From Erythrobacter sp. (GTDB lineage: Bacteria > Pseudomonadota > Alphaproteobacteria > Sphingomonadales > Sphingomonadaceae), in assembly GCA_013001165.1 (NCBI GenBank), contig JABDNC010000261.1:1-46065 (forward strand): a stretch of DNA of 46,065 bases, in the 5' to 3' direction. Every line of letters starts with the position of its first letter. Position 1 is the first letter of the stretch. The notes under the pieces were generated by a model that was given only the letters and a program-made list of their open reading frames with translations, ran no database searches and had not been told where the DNA came from. A program made the translations under genes and the position numbers. Of the stretch, positions 9,180 through 17,121 are shown in pieces.

Positions 9180-10208
9180 CTACTCGCCCTCTTCCATGAG
9201 GCCGTGTTTCTTGATCGCATGGCGTAGCTGGTCGTAGCTCAGGCCTAGCGCCTTGGCTGTCTGTCGCTGGTTCCAGCGGTGCTTGCCAAGCGCATGCTCG
9301 ATTATGGCGCGTTCATGCTCGTCCACCGCGGCCTTGAGATCGTCGACATGGTCGAGGTCTATCGACGGTGCGCCGGGCTGCGGGCTAGCTGCTTCGGCAG
9401 AAGCCTGCTTGGGAGGCGCGGGAGAGACAGGCTTCCAAGGGCTGTCGAAAGGATCGAACTGGACGTGGGCGATCGGGGTCTCCCAGTCATCCCAGCGGTA
9501 CACCGCACGTTCGACTACGTTGCGCAATTCACGCACATTGCCCGGCCAGGGATGGTTCTCGAGCTCTTCGGAGACATGATCGGCGAAACCGGGCCAGGCT
9601 TCCCAGCCGAGTTCCGCACCCATCCGGCGTCCGAAATAATCGGCCAGCACCTCGATATCGCCCTCGCGCACACGAAGGGGCGGCAGGGTGATGACCTCGA
9701 AACTCAAGCGGTCGAGCAGATCAGCCCTGAACTCGCCCCGAGCCGCCTTGGCTGGCAAGTCCTCATTGGTGGCAGCGACAATCCGCACGTCGACCCTCAT
9801 CGGGCGTGACGAACCAATGCGCGTCACCTCGCCATATTCCACGGCACGCAACAGGCGCTCTTGGGCGCCCATCGACAAAGTACCCAGTTCGTCGAGGAAT
9901 AACGTGCCCTTGTCGGCTTCCTCGAACCTTCCGGCGCGTTGTTTGGTAGCTCCCGTAAACGCACCTGCTTCGTGGCCGAACAGTTCGGCCTCAATGAGCG
10001 TTTCGGGAAGCGCTGCACAGTTCATCGTAACGAGCGGCTCGTCCCAGCGGGTGGACAGACGGTGGAGTCGCTCGGCAATCAGTTCCTTGCCGGTACCGCG
10101 CTCGCCGATGACCAGAACGGGCCTGCGCATGGGGGCCGCGCGACTGGTCCGCTCGACCGCGTCGAGAAAGGCCCCAGACTGGCCGATATACTGATTTTCC
10201 CGCTCCAT
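9180..10208 (-). CDS. pspF: Sigma-54-dependent psp operon activator PspF
   Basis: AAA+ bEBP motifs (GERGTGKELIAERLH, GAFTGA, FLDELGTL) and a Fis-type HTH C-terminus; no N-terminal receiver; divergent to pspA. Start set at MERENQYIGQS. Confidence 0.92.
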   Translation of the reverse strand: MERENQYIGQSGAFLDAVERTSRAAPMRRPVLVIGERGTGKELIAERLHRLSTRWDEPLVTMNCAALPETLIEAELFGHEAGAFTGATKQRAGRFEEADKGTLFLDELGTLSMGAQERLLRAVEYGEVTRIGSSRPMRVDVRIVAATNEDLPAKAARGEFRADLLDRLSFEVITLPPLRVREGDIEVLADYFGRRMGAELGWEAWPGFADHVSEELENHPWPGNVRELRNVVERAVYRWDDWETPIAHVQFDPFDSPWKPVSPAPPKQASAEAASPQPGAPSIDLDHVDDLKAAVDEHERAIIEHALGKHRWNQRQTAKALGLSYDQLRHAIKKHGLMEEGE

Positions 10209-10308: not shown

Positions 10309-10324
10309 TGGCACACCCCTTGCT
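10309..10324 (+). promoter_or_regulatory. Sigma-54 (-24/-12) promoter of the psp operon
   Basis: TGGCACACCCCTTGCT matches TGGCAC-N5-TTGC(W), in the pspF/psp divergent intergenic region. Confidence 0.88.
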
Positions 10325-10365: not shown

Positions 10366-10518
10366 ATGTACGACCGCAAGTTCTTCAGCACCCAGCTCGG
10401 CAAGGCCGCCATCGCCAGCATCGCCATGATGACGGCATTCGTAGCCCTGAGCTCGCAGATCACGGTCACCACCCCGATGCCGCTGGTGGCATCGATCCAG
10501 CATGTGGAAATCGCGTGA
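10366..10518 (+). CDS. 50-aa hydrophobic small protein, first ORF after the sigma-54 promoter
   Basis: ATG preceded by AAGGGAGG; MYDRKFFSTQLGKAAIASIAMMTAFVALSSQITVTTPMPLVASIQHVEIA. Below the ORF-track length cut-off. Confidence 0.65.
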   Translation: MYDRKFFSTQLGKAAIASIAMMTAFVALSSQITVTTPMPLVASIQHVEIA

Positions 10519-10534
10519 GCAATTTCGATCCCCT

Positions 10535-10600
10535 CGGGCCGGAGCGTTCTACCCCCGGTAGTCCCCCGCGCAACCCAGCGCAGAAGAACGCTTCGGCCCG
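10535..10600 (+). other. Long stem-loop between the 50-aa ORF and pspA
   Basis: CGGGCCGGAGCGTTCT (10535-10550) pairs with AGAACGCTTCGGCCCG (10585-10600): 16 bp with one G.U; no T-run follows. Confidence 0.6.
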
Positions 10601-10721
10601 CCCCAATACAGTCCGCTTGTCGCGGCTCGACAGTGAGGTAGAACGGCTTCGCCACTCGCCCACTCCGACGCAGGACACCGGCAAGCGCACTGCACAGTTT
10701 TTTTCCAGTGGAGCACCTTTG

Positions 10722-11408
10722 ATGGGAATCTTCAGCCGTACCCGTGACATCATCGCGGCCAACTTCAACGACATGCTCGACCAGGCGGACGATCCTCAGA
10801 AGATGATCCGCATGATCATCCTCGAAATGGAGGAAACGCTGGTCGAGGTCCGCGCAAGTGCCGCTCGCACCATCGCCGACCAGAAGGAAATGCACCGCCA
10901 TTCGGTCAAGCTCGAACGGCTCCAGACCGATTGGGGCGAAAAGGCAGCGCTCGCACTTTCGAAAGATCGTGAAGACCTCGCCCGTGCAGCCCTGGTCGAG
11001 AAGAAAAAGGCCGGCGACATGGCCGACCAGCTCAAACAGGAAATCTCGGTGCTCGACGATGCCCTGCGCGCTTACGAAAAGGACATCGCCAAGCTGCAGA
11101 ACCGCCTGCGCGAAGCTCGCAGCCGCCAGACTGCCATCGCGGCGCGTCTCGAAAGCGCAGAGAACCGCGTCAAGCTGCGCAGCCTGATGACCGAAGATCG
11201 CGTGGACGATGCGCTCAGCCGCTTCGACCAGCTCGAACGCCGCGTCGATTACGCCGAAGGCCGCGCCGATGCGCTGTCGATCGAGGGCAAGGGCCAGCCG
11301 AGCCTATCCGACGAGATTGCCGCGCTCGAAGGCGCCGATGCAATCGATGACGAACTTGAACAGATGAAAAAGGCGCTCGGCAAGGACGGCGCAAAGAAAG
11401 AGGACTGA
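10722..11408 (+). CDS. pspA: Phage shock protein A
   Basis: MGIFSRTRDIIAANFNDMLDQADDPQKMIRMIILEMEETLVEVR; PspA/IM30 coiled coil; GGAG SD 8 nt before ATG. Confidence 0.95.
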   Translation: MGIFSRTRDIIAANFNDMLDQADDPQKMIRMIILEMEETLVEVRASAARTIADQKEMHRHSVKLERLQTDWGEKAALALSKDREDLARAALVEKKKAGDMADQLKQEISVLDDALRAYEKDIAKLQNRLREARSRQTAIAARLESAENRVKLRSLMTEDRVDDALSRFDQLERRVDYAEGRADALSIEGKGQPSLSDEIAALEGADAIDDELEQMKKALGKDGAKKED

Positions 11409-11411
11409 CCC

Positions 11412-11708
11412 GTGGACGAGATTTTTGCAATCGTATCGATCTTCATCGCGCTGCCGTGGATCATTCTCCACTACATCACGAAATGGAAGACTTCCGCCAC
11501 CATCACCACCGATGACGAGGCCCTGCTCGAAGAGCTCTACAACCTCGCCAAGCGCCTCGATGACCGCATGGACACCGTTGAACGCCTGGTGGCTTCCGAC
11601 AACCCCGATTTCCGTCCTGCCCGCCTCGTCCATGACAGCGAAGAGGACAACCAGCAGCTGCGCGAACTCGAACAGCTGATCGCCGAGAAAAAAGGAGCAG
11701 CAAAGTGA
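11412..11708 (+). CDS. pspB: Envelope stress protein PspB
   Basis: IFAIVSIFIALPWIILHYITKWK...LLEELYNLAKRLDDRMDTVERLV; position after pspA; GTG start. Confidence 0.88.
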   Translation: MDEIFAIVSIFIALPWIILHYITKWKTSATITTDDEALLEELYNLAKRLDDRMDTVERLVASDNPDFRPARLVHDSEEDNQQLRELEQLIAEKKGAAK

Positions 11709-12082
11709 ATAGCCCCCGTACAACCCTCTATCGCGACAAGACCAATGCGAAGCTGATGGGCGTGTGCTCGGGCATCGCGGACTACACGGGCGTCGATGCC
11801 TTCTGGGTTCGCCTCGGCTTCCTCGGCCTGACCTTCATGACCGGTGGATCGACGATCCCCTTCTACTTCCTGGCCGGCCTGCTGCTGAACAAGAAGCCCG
11901 CGCATCTCTATTCCGAGCCTGCCGAGCAGAAGTACTGGCAGGGCGTGCGCCAGAACCCGAAGCGCACGGCTCGCGAGATCCGTAGCCGCATGAAGGATAT
12001 CGACCGCCGCCTCGCCGACGTCGAGACCTTCTACGTCAGCAACAACCCGCGCCTGACCGCCGAAATCGAGCGCCTGCGCTAA
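11705..12082 (+). CDS. pspC: PspC-domain envelope stress protein
   Basis: LYRDKTNAKLMGVCSGIADYTGVDAFWVRLGFLGLTF is the PspC domain. Confidence 0.92.
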   Translation: MNSPRTTLYRDKTNAKLMGVCSGIADYTGVDAFWVRLGFLGLTFMTGGSTIPFYFLAGLLLNKKPAHLYSEPAEQKYWQGVRQNPKRTAREIRSRMKDIDRRLADVETFYVSNNPRLTAEIERLR

Positions 12083-12106: not shown

Positions 12107-12412
12107 ATGGATCTGGCAATATTGATCCCGCTTGCACCCTTTATCATGGTGCTTGGCATCATCTGGCTGGTGAACCAGCGCAAGCTTGAGGAAAAGCGCA
12201 TCTCGGCCACCGCCGAGGCTAGTTCCGAAAAGGCCGCGCAATACGCCAGCCGCGTGCAGCAACTCGAAGACCGCGTCCAGGTGCTCGAGCGTATCGTGAC
12301 CGACAAGGGCTACGATGTGGCCACGCAGATCGAAGCGCTTCGTGACCAGCGCCAAGTCGAAGACAAAGGCAGCGGCGTGCCGCTCGATATCAAGAATTCG
12401 GAGAGAGCATAA
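12107..12412 (+). CDS. Psp-associated small membrane protein, paralog 1
   Basis: One TM plus LEDRVQVLERIVTDKGYDVATQIEALRD; shares C-terminal GSGVPLDIKNSERA with paralog 2. Confidence 0.8.
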   Translation: MDLAILIPLAPFIMVLGIIWLVNQRKLEEKRISATAEASSEKAAQYASRVQQLEDRVQVLERIVTDKGYDVATQIEALRDQRQVEDKGSGVPLDIKNSERA

Positions 12413-12747
12413 TGGATTGGGGAGGCCCGGCTTTCGTCATTGCCCTGGTGGCGCTCAGCACTGGTGGTTGGCTTATCAACAACTGGATCCGCGCCAAGCA
12501 TGGCTACTCTCTCGAAGACGAATGGGGCGGCAAGACCGAGCGCCGCGACACGGCGGAAACCAAGCGACTGCGCGAAGAGAACCGCGAGCTGCATGACAAG
12601 CTCGACTCCATGCAGGACCGCATGATCGTGCTCGAAAAGATCGTCACCGACCGCGGCTATTCGCTGAGCGACGAAATCGAAGCCCTGCGCGACCGCGACA
12701 CCGGCACTGGCGTGCCGCTCGACATCAAGACTTCGGAGAAAGCATAA
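12412..12747 (+). CDS. Psp-associated small membrane protein, paralog 2
   Basis: One TM plus MQDRMIVLEKIVTDRGYSLSDEIEALRD; TAATG overlap with the preceding gene. Confidence 0.8.
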   Translation: MDWGGPAFVIALVALSTGGWLINNWIRAKHGYSLEDEWGGKTERRDTAETKRLREENRELHDKLDSMQDRMIVLEKIVTDRGYSLSDEIEALRDRDTGTGVPLDIKTSEKA

Positions 12748-13061
12748 TGGACTTGTCTGAAATCCCCGTAGCGATGCTCGCCATTCCCTCGGCCCTCATC
12801 GCACTCGGCTGGGTCGCCAACACCTGGATCCGCGTGAAGCATGGCTATCCGCTTGAAAACAGCTGGGGCAAGGCGGTGTATCCGCGGAACGACCAAGCCG
12901 TGGAGCGGGTCAAGCTGCTCACCCAGGAAAATGCCGAACTGCGTGCCGAACTCGGCTCGCTCAAGGACCGGCTCGGCAATGTCGAGCGCATCGTGACCGA
13001 CAGCGGCTATCACCTTACCAGCGAGATCGATCGCCTGCGTGACAAGTCGGAGGCCAACTGA
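12747..13061 (+). CDS. Psp-associated small membrane protein, paralog 3
   Basis: One TM plus LKDRLGNVERIVTDSGYHLTSEIDRLRD; shares TWIRVKHGYPLENSWG with paralog 2; TAATG overlap. Confidence 0.8.
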   Translation: MDLSEIPVAMLAIPSALIALGWVANTWIRVKHGYPLENSWGKAVYPRNDQAVERVKLLTQENAELRAELGSLKDRLGNVERIVTDSGYHLTSEIDRLRDKSEAN

Positions 13062-13309
13062 TGTTCGGCGGTGCAGATGCGCAATTGGTGCAGGACGCGC
13101 TAATCATTGCAGCGCTGGCTGCGGCGGGCGGCTTTGCCTTCGCCATCGGATTCCGGAAGCTTCACAACCGGACCGCTGACGACATGAAGCCAAACTCCAA
13201 AGGCGAGCTCGAAGAACGTGTCGAAGTGCTGGAGCGCATCGCTACCGACCGGACGATCGGCCTGGCCGATGAGATCGAACAACTACGCACGACCAAGGAG
13301 ACTGCATGA
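13061..13309 (+). CDS. Psp-associated small membrane protein, paralog 4
   Basis: One TM plus LEERVEVLERIATDRTIGLADEIEQLRT; TGATG overlap. Confidence 0.8.
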   Translation: MFGGADAQLVQDALIIAALAAAGGFAFAIGFRKLHNRTADDMKPNSKGELEERVEVLERIATDRTIGLADEIEQLRTTKETA

Positions 13310-13614
13310 TGGACCCTGACCTCATACTCATCTTCGGGTTCATCCTGACAGTCGCCAGCCTTGGCATGGTGACCGGTATCGTCATCCACCGCAGCCAGAT
13401 CCGTGCCGATGAGCGCAAGCTGGAACTCAAGGCGCAGGTCGAGCAGGCCAAGGCAGACCAGGCCCGTTTCGGCAATGGCGATTACAGCAAGATGGAAGAA
13501 CGCGTCCGCGTGCTCGAACGCATCGCCACCGACAGCAACCATGCACTCGCGGCGCAGATCGATGAACTGCGGGCACTTGATGCAGTCGAAGACAAGCGGG
13601 AGCGTGCTTCGTGA
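13306..13614 (+). CDS. Psp-associated small membrane protein, paralog 5
   Basis: One TM plus MEERVRVLERIATDSNHALAAQIDELRA; ATGA overlap. Confidence 0.8.
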   Translation: MMDPDLILIFGFILTVASLGMVTGIVIHRSQIRADERKLELKAQVEQAKADQARFGNGDYSKMEERVRVLERIATDSNHALAAQIDELRALDAVEDKRERAS

Positions 13615-13904
13615 GTGGATGGGCCATCGTAGCTGTCGTCGCGATCGTGGTGTGGGGCATCGTCCAGATGGGCAAGGCTCGCCACCGCGCAGACCGCGGC
13701 ATCGTCACCGACGAACGCGGTAACGAAAGCTTCGGCCAGGCCCGCGATGCGGAAACGGAACAGGAAATCGAAGACCTGCGCGAACGGATCAAGGTACTCG
13801 AGAGGATCGCCACCGACGGCAATTCGCTCGACGCTCAGGAAACCAAGAGAATTGCCGCCGAGATCGAAGCGCTGCGCGACAAGCAGCCCGGCAAAGGCGA
13901 ATAG
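13611..13904 (+). CDS. Psp-associated small membrane protein, paralog 6
   Basis: One TM plus LRERIKVLERIATDGNSLDAQETKRIAAEIEALRD; GTGA overlap. Confidence 0.78.
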   Translation: MSGWAIVAVVAIVVWGIVQMGKARHRADRGIVTDERGNESFGQARDAETEQEIEDLRERIKVLERIATDGNSLDAQETKRIAAEIEALRDKQPGKGE

Positions 13905-13937
13905 GAAGAGGCACTGGTTCAAGGAGGACATGGGGAA

Positions 13938-14174
13938 ATGTTCGAACCTACATTGATTATCGCGGCAGCCAGCCTGACTGGTCTCGTCATCATCGCAGCG
14001 GCCATGTTACGTGGCTGGCAGGGCTGGCTGGAGCTCAAGCGCAGCGAACTCGAGGGACATCACGGCCCGCGGGCAGAAGAAGGCTCTTCGATGGGCGCGG
14101 CCCGTATCGAACTTGCCGACCTGAAAGAGCGCATCAAGAAGCTCGAGGCAATCGCCAGCGGGGTGGACCTGTGA
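13938..14174 (+). CDS. Psp-associated small membrane protein, paralog 7 (short)
   Basis: One TM plus LKERIKKLEAIASG; the motif is truncated. Confidence 0.72.
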   Translation: MFEPTLIIAAASLTGLVIIAAAMLRGWQGWLELKRSELEGHHGPRAEEGSSMGAARIELADLKERIKKLEAIASGVDL

Positions 14175-14347
14175 TCGAGCGGGGCGGCGAAGTCGCCAAG
14201 GTCGGGATCGGGATCGGCAGCGCGCTAGCGATTGCAATTTCGTGGAGCCAGAACCAATCGATCCTCTGGGCCATCTTCCATGGCTTCATCAGCTGGATCT
14301 ACGTGATCTACCATGCCTTTACCCGCCCGGGCGGCCTGATGGGCTGA
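14171..14347 (+). CDS. 58-aa small membrane protein
   Basis: GTGA overlap with preceding stop; VIERGGEVAKVGIGIGSALAIAISWSQNQSILWAIFHGFISWIYVIYHAFTRPGGLMG. Absent from the ORF track (length cut-off). Confidence 0.7.
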   Translation: MIERGGEVAKVGIGIGSALAIAISWSQNQSILWAIFHGFISWIYVIYHAFTRPGGLMG

Positions 14348-14389
14348 GACGATGGACGCATGCGCGCTCGCAGGCTAGAGGGCGCCGCC

Positions 14390-14797
14390 ATGCGATCCCT
14401 TTCCGATATCGAAGAAGAGTACGAGTTCCTCGAAGGCGATGAACGTTATCGCCTCCTGATCGAACTCGGGCGCGAACTGGACGAGATGCCGGACGCGTTG
14501 AAGACCGATGCAACCCTGGTGCGCGGCTGTTCCGCGAGCGTGTGGGTCTATCCCACCGGCGAGCCGGGCAGGCTCCACTTTCTCGCCGACAGCAATGCAG
14601 CGATCACCAAGGGCATCGTCGCGCTGGTGATTTCCGCCGTTCAGGATCGTCCTGCTAGCGAAGTCGCCCACATGGACATTCACGCTGCCCTCGCCCCCTT
14701 CGACCTGAAGAACCAGCTGTCGAGCAATCGCACGCAGGGCGTGCCCAACATGATCGCCTTGGTAAAGGAGCACGCTGCGCGGATCGCAGCAGGCTGA
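14390..14797 (+). CDS. sufE: SufE family Fe-S assembly protein
   Basis: RYRLLIELGRELDEMPDALKTDATLVRGCSASVWV with conserved Cys motif (VRGC). Confidence 0.9.
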   Translation: MRSLSDIEEEYEFLEGDERYRLLIELGRELDEMPDALKTDATLVRGCSASVWVYPTGEPGRLHFLADSNAAITKGIVALVISAVQDRPASEVAHMDIHAALAPFDLKNQLSSNRTQGVPNMIALVKEHAARIAAG

Positions 14798-15150: not shown

Positions 15151-17121
15151 TCAGTCCTTCTGCAAGGGCCAGTCCATCGGAGACGGAAGATCCAGCGACG
15201 CGCCGGCTTGCTCGAGCCGCGCCTTGAATCTCGGCGTCGCATCGAGATCGAAGCCATTGCCGCAGTGGCACGTTACTATGCCGCTGTGTGCGAACCAGAT
15301 CGGCCCCGCCGGCCGTGCGTCGATCCTGGCTGCGACCTCATCGGCGAAATCCTGATCACCCATCAATGTTGCGACATGCAGGAACGCGACATCGGGCGCA
15401 CCCATTTGTTCGAAGAACTCTTTCTGGGCCTGCAAACCCTTTCGGTCGCCTTCGGCAGCGAGCACCCAGGTCTCTGCCTGCCCCCGATAATATGCCTGCG
15501 GGTCCATCTTGCCCAACACTTCGCGCGCCTCTCCGGTCCGTCCGGCGGCCGCCAGCGCGAGAACATGGATGCGCATCATCGCCTCCGAGGTGTCCCCAGC
15601 GCTCTCGGCAATCTCGATCGCCTCATCGAGGCGGTCGGCATAGATCAACATCGCCACCAGCGGGACGCGGCTCGACAAGGGATCGCACTTCCTTTGGCGC
15701 TGCGCATACTCGATATACTCGTCGACCAGCCCCAGCCGTATGACCAGCCAGTCATCGTAGCTCGTAAGCATGCTGCAGCTGCCCTGATGCGTCAGAAGGC
15801 GTTCCACGACCTCCCTCGCGTTGGACCAGTCGTCCGAATACTGGATCGCCTGCTGGTCGATAATCGGATAGGCCGAGCGAGGCGCATTCTCGCGCGCCAA
15901 TGCCAGTCTGCGTAGAATTTCGAGACGCGCCTCTTCGGCTACTGCGGGTCCCCCAACATCAAAGCCGATGCTGTGGTCGGTCAGCAAGTGGCTGTAACGG
16001 TCGATTGCAGCGATCTGCGCATTCCAGAATTTCGGTTCGAGCGCGAAAGCACGGTCGAACAACTCGTTGGCCTCGGCCAGATTTTCGTAGGTCGCGCCCT
16101 GGTTGTGCGCTTTACCGAAGAGGTCCAGACCCCGTGCGAAGAGCGCATAAGCTTCGGGATTATCGATACCCGCATCGCCCATCCGGGAACGCTTGTCGTC
16201 ATCCAGCAGCACGCCAAGTGCCTCGGCCGCGCGTTCGGCAATTTCCGACTGGACGCGCAGGATGTCGGATCCGGCAACGTCGTAAGTGTCGCTCCAGAGC
16301 TGACTGCCATCTTCGGCGCGCACGAGCTGTGCCGTGACGCGCCAATCCTCGCCATTTCTCCTCACAGTCCCGTCGACGAGGTGCGTCACCCCGAGCCTTT
16401 CCGCCACTTCGCCGGCCTGGAGGTCGGTTTCGGCAAACTGGAAACTGGAAGAACGCGCCGTGACACGCAGCTCGGTCAGCGCGCCCAATCGGTTGAGGAT
16501 TTCTTCCGCCACGCCTTCGGCGAAATAGCGATCCTCTTCATCTTGCGAGAGCGAGCGGAAGGGCAGGACCGCGACAGCGGTTAGTTCTTCTTGCTTAGTT
16601 GCCTCGACGGATCCTGCCGACCCGCCGGCAAACCACCACGCCCCCAGGCCTGCGAGAAGGAGAATAGCCCCGACAGCTGCAAAAATCCCCACGAGACTGC
16701 GGGCAGGCGCGGCTTGTGATGCAGGAGGCGAAGAGGGCAGGCTGCCCAGCCTGTGGCCCAACGCGCGCAGGAGATCGCCGTGGCCGTGATCGTCCGTCAT
16801 GTCGATGGCGTGAATCTGTTTGAACCCGATCGGTGGGGGGGTTCCGTCGAGACTGGTAGCCACCAGCTTTCCTGCTTCTAGGCCTATCCCCGCCTCGTCG
16901 CGCACCCAGCGGGACGTGACGCCGTCTTTGGACCAGAGAACGAGGACGACCTGCGCCTCTTCCAGCCTTCGTTCGATTTCCTTGGCGAATTCCGAACCGC
17001 CATCGATGTGGCGATCCCACCAGACCGAATAACCGGCAGCCTCGATCTCGGCCGCCAGCCGCTCCGCACTTTCACGGTCAGCGCGGGCATAGGAAAGGAA
17101 GATGTCCCCCATGACCGGCAA
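15151..17121 (-). CDS. TIR domain / TM / TolB-like (FlgO-type) / TPR protein
   Basis: N-terminal DIFLSYARADRESAERLAAEIEAAGYSVWWDRHIDGGSEF...SRWVRDEAGIGLEAGK; single TM; VAVLPFRSLSQDEEDRYFAEGVAEEILNRL; TPR-like C-terminus. Confidence 0.85.
   Translation of the reverse strand: MPVMGDIFLSYARADRESAERLAAEIEAAGYSVWWDRHIDGGSEFAKEIERRLEEAQVVLVLWSKDGVTSRWVRDEAGIGLEAGKLVATSLDGTPPPIGFKQIHAIDMTDDHGHGDLLRALGHRLGSLPSSPPASQAAPARSLVGIFAAVGAILLLAGLGAWWFAGGSAGSVEATKQEELTAVAVLPFRSLSQDEEDRYFAEGVAEEILNRLGALTELRVTARSSSFQFAETDLQAGEVAERLGVTHLVDGTVRRNGEDWRVTAQLVRAEDGSQLWSDTYDVAGSDILRVQSEIAERAAEALGVLLDDDKRSRMGDAGIDNPEAYALFARGLDLFGKAHNQGATYENLAEANELFDRAFALEPKFWNAQIAAIDRYSHLLTDHSIGFDVGGPAVAEEARLEILRRLALARENAPRSAYPIIDQQAIQYSDDWSNAREVVERLLTHQGSCSMLTSYDDWLVIRLGLVDEYIEYAQRQRKCDPLSSRVPLVAMLIYADRLDEAIEIAESAGDTSEAMMRIHVLALAAAGRTGEAREVLGKMDPQAYYRGQAETWVLAAEGDRKGLQAQKEFFEQMGAPDVAFLHVATLMGDQDFADEVAARIDARPAGPIWFAHSGIVTCHCGNGFDLDATPRFKARLEQAGASLDLPSPMDWPLQKD

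Follow-up and report, generated by a model that had tools for sequence, protein, structure and literature searches.

What are the seven small genes that directly follow pspABC on the + strand (12107-14174) of an Erythrobacter sp. contig, and what might their products do in a phage shock protein operon? The stretch of DNA analysed here, referred to as the window, comprises 46,065 nucleotides. A sequence-only reading had described the seven genes as consecutive, mostly overlapping paralogs encoding membrane proteins with one N-terminal transmembrane (TM) segment and a shared C-terminal signature, and all of them were found at these places.

Organization of the psp locus

The locus setting is that of a Qipengyuania-like genome of the Erythrobacteraceae, a group put by GTDB into the Sphingomonadaceae, and the encoded PspA has the same sequence as the Q. 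xiamenensis protein (locus L003). The gene order is pspF (divergently oriented), a sigma-54 site, a 50-aa ORF, pspA, pspB, pspC, the array genes (designated P1-P7), a 58-aa ORF, sufE and a DUF454 gene (Table 1). The 50-aa ORF, for which a Pfam search gave no match, is the first gene 3' of the sigma-54 site, and its stop codon shares bases with the GTG at which the PspA extension begins. The 58-aa ORF could not be linked to the array units by hhalign; its ortholog adjoins P7 in about half of the relatives. The psp operon is also adjoined by a gene for a TIR-domain protein with a TPR-like C-terminal part (15151-17112, - strand), which shows 70-81 percent identity in three close relatives and is absent from most other loci examined.

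Table 1. Features identified in the psp locus of the window
Feature	Position	Strand	Supporting data
pspF, sigma-54 activator (AAA+ plus Fis HTH), divergent	9180..10208	-	Pfam PF00158 206 bits, HTH_8
Sigma-54-type promoter, TGGCAC-N5-TTGCT	10309..10324	+	sole match in window
Small conserved 50-aa ORF, one hydrophobic segment, operon head	10366..10518	+	present in 68 relatives' loci
PspA N-terminal extension, 69 codons, SRLDSEVERLR motif	10515..10721	+	open frame in 80/80 relatives
pspA core	10722..11408	+	PF04012 125 bits
pspB	11412..11708	+	PF06667 78 bits, TIGR02976 91 bits
pspC, C-terminal end RLTAEIERLR	11705..12082	+	TIGR02978 121 bits
P1, PspB-like, first in array	12107..12412	+	PF06667 26.0 bits (cut-off 25.6)
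P2, mosaic (P3-like head, P1-like tail), missing in Q. xiamenensis	12412..12747	+	
P3, with KHGYxLExxWG; of the units, tail nearest to PspC C-terminus	12747..13061	+	E 2e-8 to PspC tail
P4, missing in Q. xiamenensis	13061..13309	+	
P5, start at 13306 or 13309	13306..13614	+	
P6, penultimate in 75/77 arrays	13611..13904	+	
P7, divergent, without EIExLR tail, last in 77/77 arrays	13938..14174	+	
58-aa hydrophobic ORF, overlaps P7 (GTGA), no paralog of units	14171..14347	+	hhalign
sufE, fixed right border of array	14360..14797	+	PF02657 115 bits

Start and stop codons overlap at five of the six internal junctions of the array (TAATG, TAATG, TGATG, ATGA and GTGA), which suggests co-translation; the sole internal gap (33 bp) separates P6 from P7, and 24 bp lie between pspC and P1. 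The sigma-54 site 5' of pspA is conserved in 76 of 80 relatives, and none was found inside the array. By this layout the array is quite probably part of the predicted PspF/sigma-54-dependent psp operon. A literature search on psp expression in sphingomonads yielded nothing useful.

Coding status and topology of the units

Gene calling based on codon usage and blind to the array selected exactly these seven ORFs. Pairwise comparison with close relatives gave dN/dS values of 0.00-0.26 for each unit. Purifying selection is thus strong on all seven, which behave as functional genes.

The encoded proteins (78-111 aa) all carry the N-terminal TM helix that had been claimed for them, and a clear TM segment near the N-terminus was detected in 395 of 432 units of relatives. 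Positive charge is greater on the C side of this segment in 397 of the 432 units, the criterion applied for an N-out/C-in orientation. According to these predictions, the N-terminus of each unit would face the periplasm, and a single TM helix would lead via a helical linker to a PspB/PspC-type element in the cytoplasm. The model of P1 predicts one long helix (residues 9-88); a Foldseek search with this model returned no match, and no solved structure was matched by PspB.

Homology among the units

Comparison of ortholog-group profiles revealed that P1-P6 mutually match at E-values of 1e-8 to 1e-31 (pairwise profile-profile values, not those of a library search). P7, the outlier and most divergent unit, is linked to P6 at E 2.6e-8. 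Five columns (R56, E61, I75, L78 and R79 in P1 numbering) are invariant among 33 diverse units. On these profile comparisons the seven genes are paralogous beyond chance, as the sequence-only reading had claimed; the shared C-terminal signature that it assigned to all of them holds for P1-P6, which end in ERIVTD....LxxEIExLR, but P7 lacks the EIExLR tail.

In a tree of 77 arrays the P2, P3, P4, P5 and P7 groups each formed a nearly pure clade, and those of P1 and P6 did so for the most part (F1 0.89-1.00), with low support for the P1 and P3 groups. Since the clades follow the unit groups, the duplications probably predate the genera.

Relationship of the units to PspB and PspC

The sequence-only reading had placed the proteins well beyond canonical PspB/PspC. 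This view did not survive profile analysis: PspB, PspC and the units have a cytoplasmic element in common, which that reading had missed, and the units are very probably divergent members of the PspB family that carry a PspC-type tail. A profile built only from array units matched E. coli PspB with 22.1 bits (E 3e-5 in a set of 4300 proteins), a score equal to that of the native PspB profile on the same protein; none of 500 local shuffles reached it, the best scoring 15.2. The same profile aligned weakly to the E. coli PspC tail ETRLREMERYVTSDTFTL (8.6 bits, 0/500 shuffles). When whole genomes from other families of the order were scanned, its weaker matches (E 3e-5 to 1e-3) were pspB genes adjoining pspC. 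Wider profiles were required for this link, since no significant match resulted when the units were compared, profile to profile, with the PspB group of the Erythrobacteraceae only (E 0.0006-0.5).

The units share with PspB (PF06667 / TIGR02976) the N-terminal TM segment, a cytoplasmic helix with an RxxxLExI core and a place in the same operon. They differ from it in being longer and mostly under the curated cut-offs: P1 is the sole unit of the window above the Pfam cut-off (Table 1), P2-P7 individually remain below it, and among the 33 diverse units four match PF06667 at E<=0.01. The TIGR02976 equivalog cut-off (51.7 bits) was not reached by any unit, and the best score (P1, 31.3 bits) indicates paralogs rather than PspB itself. 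Over the same 33 units the top NCBIfam families were PspC (7) and PspB (6); the matches of several units to PspB and to the PspC tail were below the equivalog cut-offs. Moreover, the PspB-type ending (hLxxExPxWR, or ILDxExPxWR) is absent from P1-P6, which end in PspC-type EIExLR, and the native pspB is a separate gene of the operon.

With the C-terminal cytoplasmic domain of PspC (TIGR02978 positions 82-121) the units have in common the ungapped tail RxxxhERhhTs....LxxEIExLR. PspC of the Sphingomonad family also ends in EIExLR, whereas the units lack the PspC domain proper: PF04024 had no match in any of them, and only the C-terminal part of TIGR02978 did. A locus of another alphaproteobacterial family (L129) encodes, after pspABC, two TM proteins, of which one has a PspC tail (28.5 bits to TIGR02978 positions 82-121) and the other a PspB tail (39 bits to PF06667). 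PspD and PspG are, like the units, small membrane proteins with an accessory place in the psp regulon, but no profile link to them was found, and all that E. coli pspD shares is the equivalent place 3' of pspC.

Distribution and gene order of the array

All 77 complete loci of the Erythrobacteraceae have the array flanked by pspC and sufE, in agreement with the expectation that it should recur next to pspABC in related genomes, and this synteny also occurs in other genera. It consists of 3-9 units in these 77 loci. The order is fixed at the ends, with P1 first in 75/77 arrays and P6 and P7 at the positions given in Table 1, and the middle varies. In the whole family, 111 of 121 genomes contained matches to the A1 profile, and a genome typically had several of them in a cluster. 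Among 20 psp loci from other genera, 19 carry units or P7 3' of pspC or its remnant; one of these loci (L189) has P7 alone and another (L188) has neither. PspC was absent in 6 of 8 checked family genomes without units and in none of 18 with units (Fisher p 1e-4, uncorrected for relatedness).

In other families of the order the number of PspB-like genes is one or two, and most of these are not near psp; outside the order matches are rare. Because PspB-like units are often found away from psp genes in these other families, the role of the units may not be confined to Psp signalling. The standalone PspB-like one-TM genes were observed at loci L145-L166 (e.g. L148:1495-1767, L166:1507-1779 and L153:1513-1770); three of them adjoin a gene for an RpoD-like sigma factor, as judged by eye and not by profile.

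Turnover within the array

Compared with Q. xiamenensis, the window contains two extra whole units, P2 and P4, which are clean insertions or deletions, and the neighbouring genes are 91-99 percent identical. More generally, middle units have been gained and lost between close relatives. The P1 alleles of the two loci (window 12107-12412 and L003:8388-8693) differ sharply, with a dS of 1.2 against 0.03-0.37 for the neighbouring genes, the odd allele being that of Q. xiamenensis. Between psp operons that are nearly identical, such divergence points to the replacement of a gene inside the array.

Serial duplication had been proposed from the sequence, but P2 is no simple serial duplicate, its head scoring 41 bits as P3-like against 0.6 and its end being P1-like. 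The mosaic P2, the divergence of P1 and the gain and loss of units fit recombination between units at the shared coiled-coil and tail sequence.

Tail motif and the PspA extension

The motif [LI]xx[EQ][IV][ED]xLR forms the very end of all 81 PspC proteins. Most units have it too, as do 65 of the 80 N-terminal extensions of PspA, whereas it had no match in 233,729 residues of neighbouring background proteins. A 19-position tail profile, which like the motif pattern was defined after seeing the sequences, gave eight significant matches in the window's whole genome, all in the psp operon (next match E 1.04). A profile built solely from unit tails found PspC at no better than E 0.15-0.27, and at E<=1 the PspA extension was not among its matches. 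Sphingomonads are largely alone in having the EIExLR ending, PspC elsewhere mostly ending in LxxxFRxL.

The in-frame PspA extension of the Erythrobacteraceae contains the conserved sequence SRLDxE[IV]ERLRxSPTPTQ, in which the short motif is the same as in the PspC and unit tails; it is kept in 65-72 of 80 relatives, with dN<dS. A low-confidence prediction places a short helix over the motif (residues 34-47) and shows the rest of the extension as disordered. Near its C-terminus (around 11300-11360) PspA carries LxxE[I/F]AxL, which resembles the PspC and unit tails. Covariation of I/F in this motif with the PspC tail was weak outside the family (18/5 vs 9/11, p 0.03 uncorrected for relatedness) and was not relied on.

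Possible function of the array

The PspB and PspC proteins of Yersinia are joined in a membrane complex; when this is in the on state, PspA is bound by the C-terminal cytoplasmic domain of PspC, whereby PspF is freed (PMC5596341); in E. coli, PspB and PspC make contact through their membrane regions (PMC3068692). Given the PspB build and PspC tail of the units, the simplest reading is that they would add PspA-docking sites with different membrane-facing heads. By this analogy their most likely function would be that of extra one-TM sensors or adaptors presenting PspC-type tails to PspA. The overall explanation towards which we lean is that of an ordered, expanded PspB-family set in the psp operon, whose tails would act on PspA. 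The sequence-only reading had likewise proposed a modular set of membrane sensors or adaptors, and this part of its proposal fits the synteny, the sigma-54 layout and the joint loss with pspC.

The units would be induced together with psp and may assemble with PspB and PspC via TM and coiled-coil contacts. Their tails, by analogy with the C-terminal domain of Yersinia PspC, could bind PspA and either pull it off PspF or anchor it at the damaged membrane; for this docking mechanism we consider the chances evenly balanced. The variable TM and linker segments may tune which membrane lesions are sensed, the constant tail providing a common output, and the PspA extension, bearing the same short motif, may compete in cis for the same site.

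It is conceivable, albeit unlikely, that the units are effectors rather than sensors, i.e. that they act like PspBC as plugs in the membrane and neutralise secretins at the wrong place or other pores, different TM segments covering different pores and PspA binding being incidental. In Yersinia, PspB and PspC suffice to prevent the toxicity of secretins, whose multimers they bind (PMC5596341), and such a role would agree with variation of the TM segment and linker above a preserved tail as well as with the turnover of middle units. However, a constant PspC-type tail indicates a cytoplasmic partner, and the strong purifying selection is accompanied by no sign of rapid positive selection. We find it improbable that the units serve as structural scaffolds, i.e. 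hetero-coiled-coil partners that determine how large PspA assemblies at the membrane become, or their stoichiometry, and have no signalling role: the fixed order with invariant ends (P1...P6-P7), the long helix of the P1 model and the overlapping genes would suit such a scaffold, but the free variation in unit number among relatives fits a fixed stoichiometry poorly. Chance likeness of small membrane proteins that are unrelated and have coiled coils of a generic kind, located by chance behind psp, draws on the matches of some units to ZapB and bZIP models (E 1e-3 to 1e-4) and on a loose-cut-off PspB search that was positive in 11 of 14 control genomes, but it is already contradicted by the invariant R/E/I/L/R columns, the presence of array genes 3' of pspC in 80/80 loci, the PspB score reached by no shuffle and the genome-wide specificity of the tail profile, and is extremely improbable.

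Relation to previous reports and significance

The protein AOL22920.1 presumably comes from Erythrobacter. It is the one example given for "PspB duplicates" in a psp operon, in a single sentence of the main text of a 2024 study that also devotes one sentence to PspC with a divergent PspB at its C-terminus (PMC11237479). These duplicates are in outline the same phenomenon as the array of the window; an array of 3-9 units, its order, the tail motif and a family-wide survey were not found in that main text. Alphaproteobacteria are not named in the main text of a phyletic survey from 2022. In the literature searched we found no description of the array size and order, the chimeric PspB/PspC build, the family-wide spread or the PspA extension.

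A gene group present throughout the family, most members of which are named by no curated profile, is now explained. For the open question of how membrane damage is detected by PspB and PspC and relayed to PspA, the arrays offer 3-9 natural sensor variants per genome in environmental bacteria, in which the constant and the variable parts are clearly set apart. Should PspA dock at the tail, the array would supply ready natural swaps for mapping sensing versus output. More speculatively, and with considerable doubt, the PspB/PspC sensor of the Sphingomonadaceae may have turned into a recombining repertoire of swappable TM/linker heads on a constant PspA-docking tail, with the motif grafted onto the PspA N-terminus in Erythrobacteraceae as a built-in competitor; if this is true, several membrane lesions would be sensed via one output.
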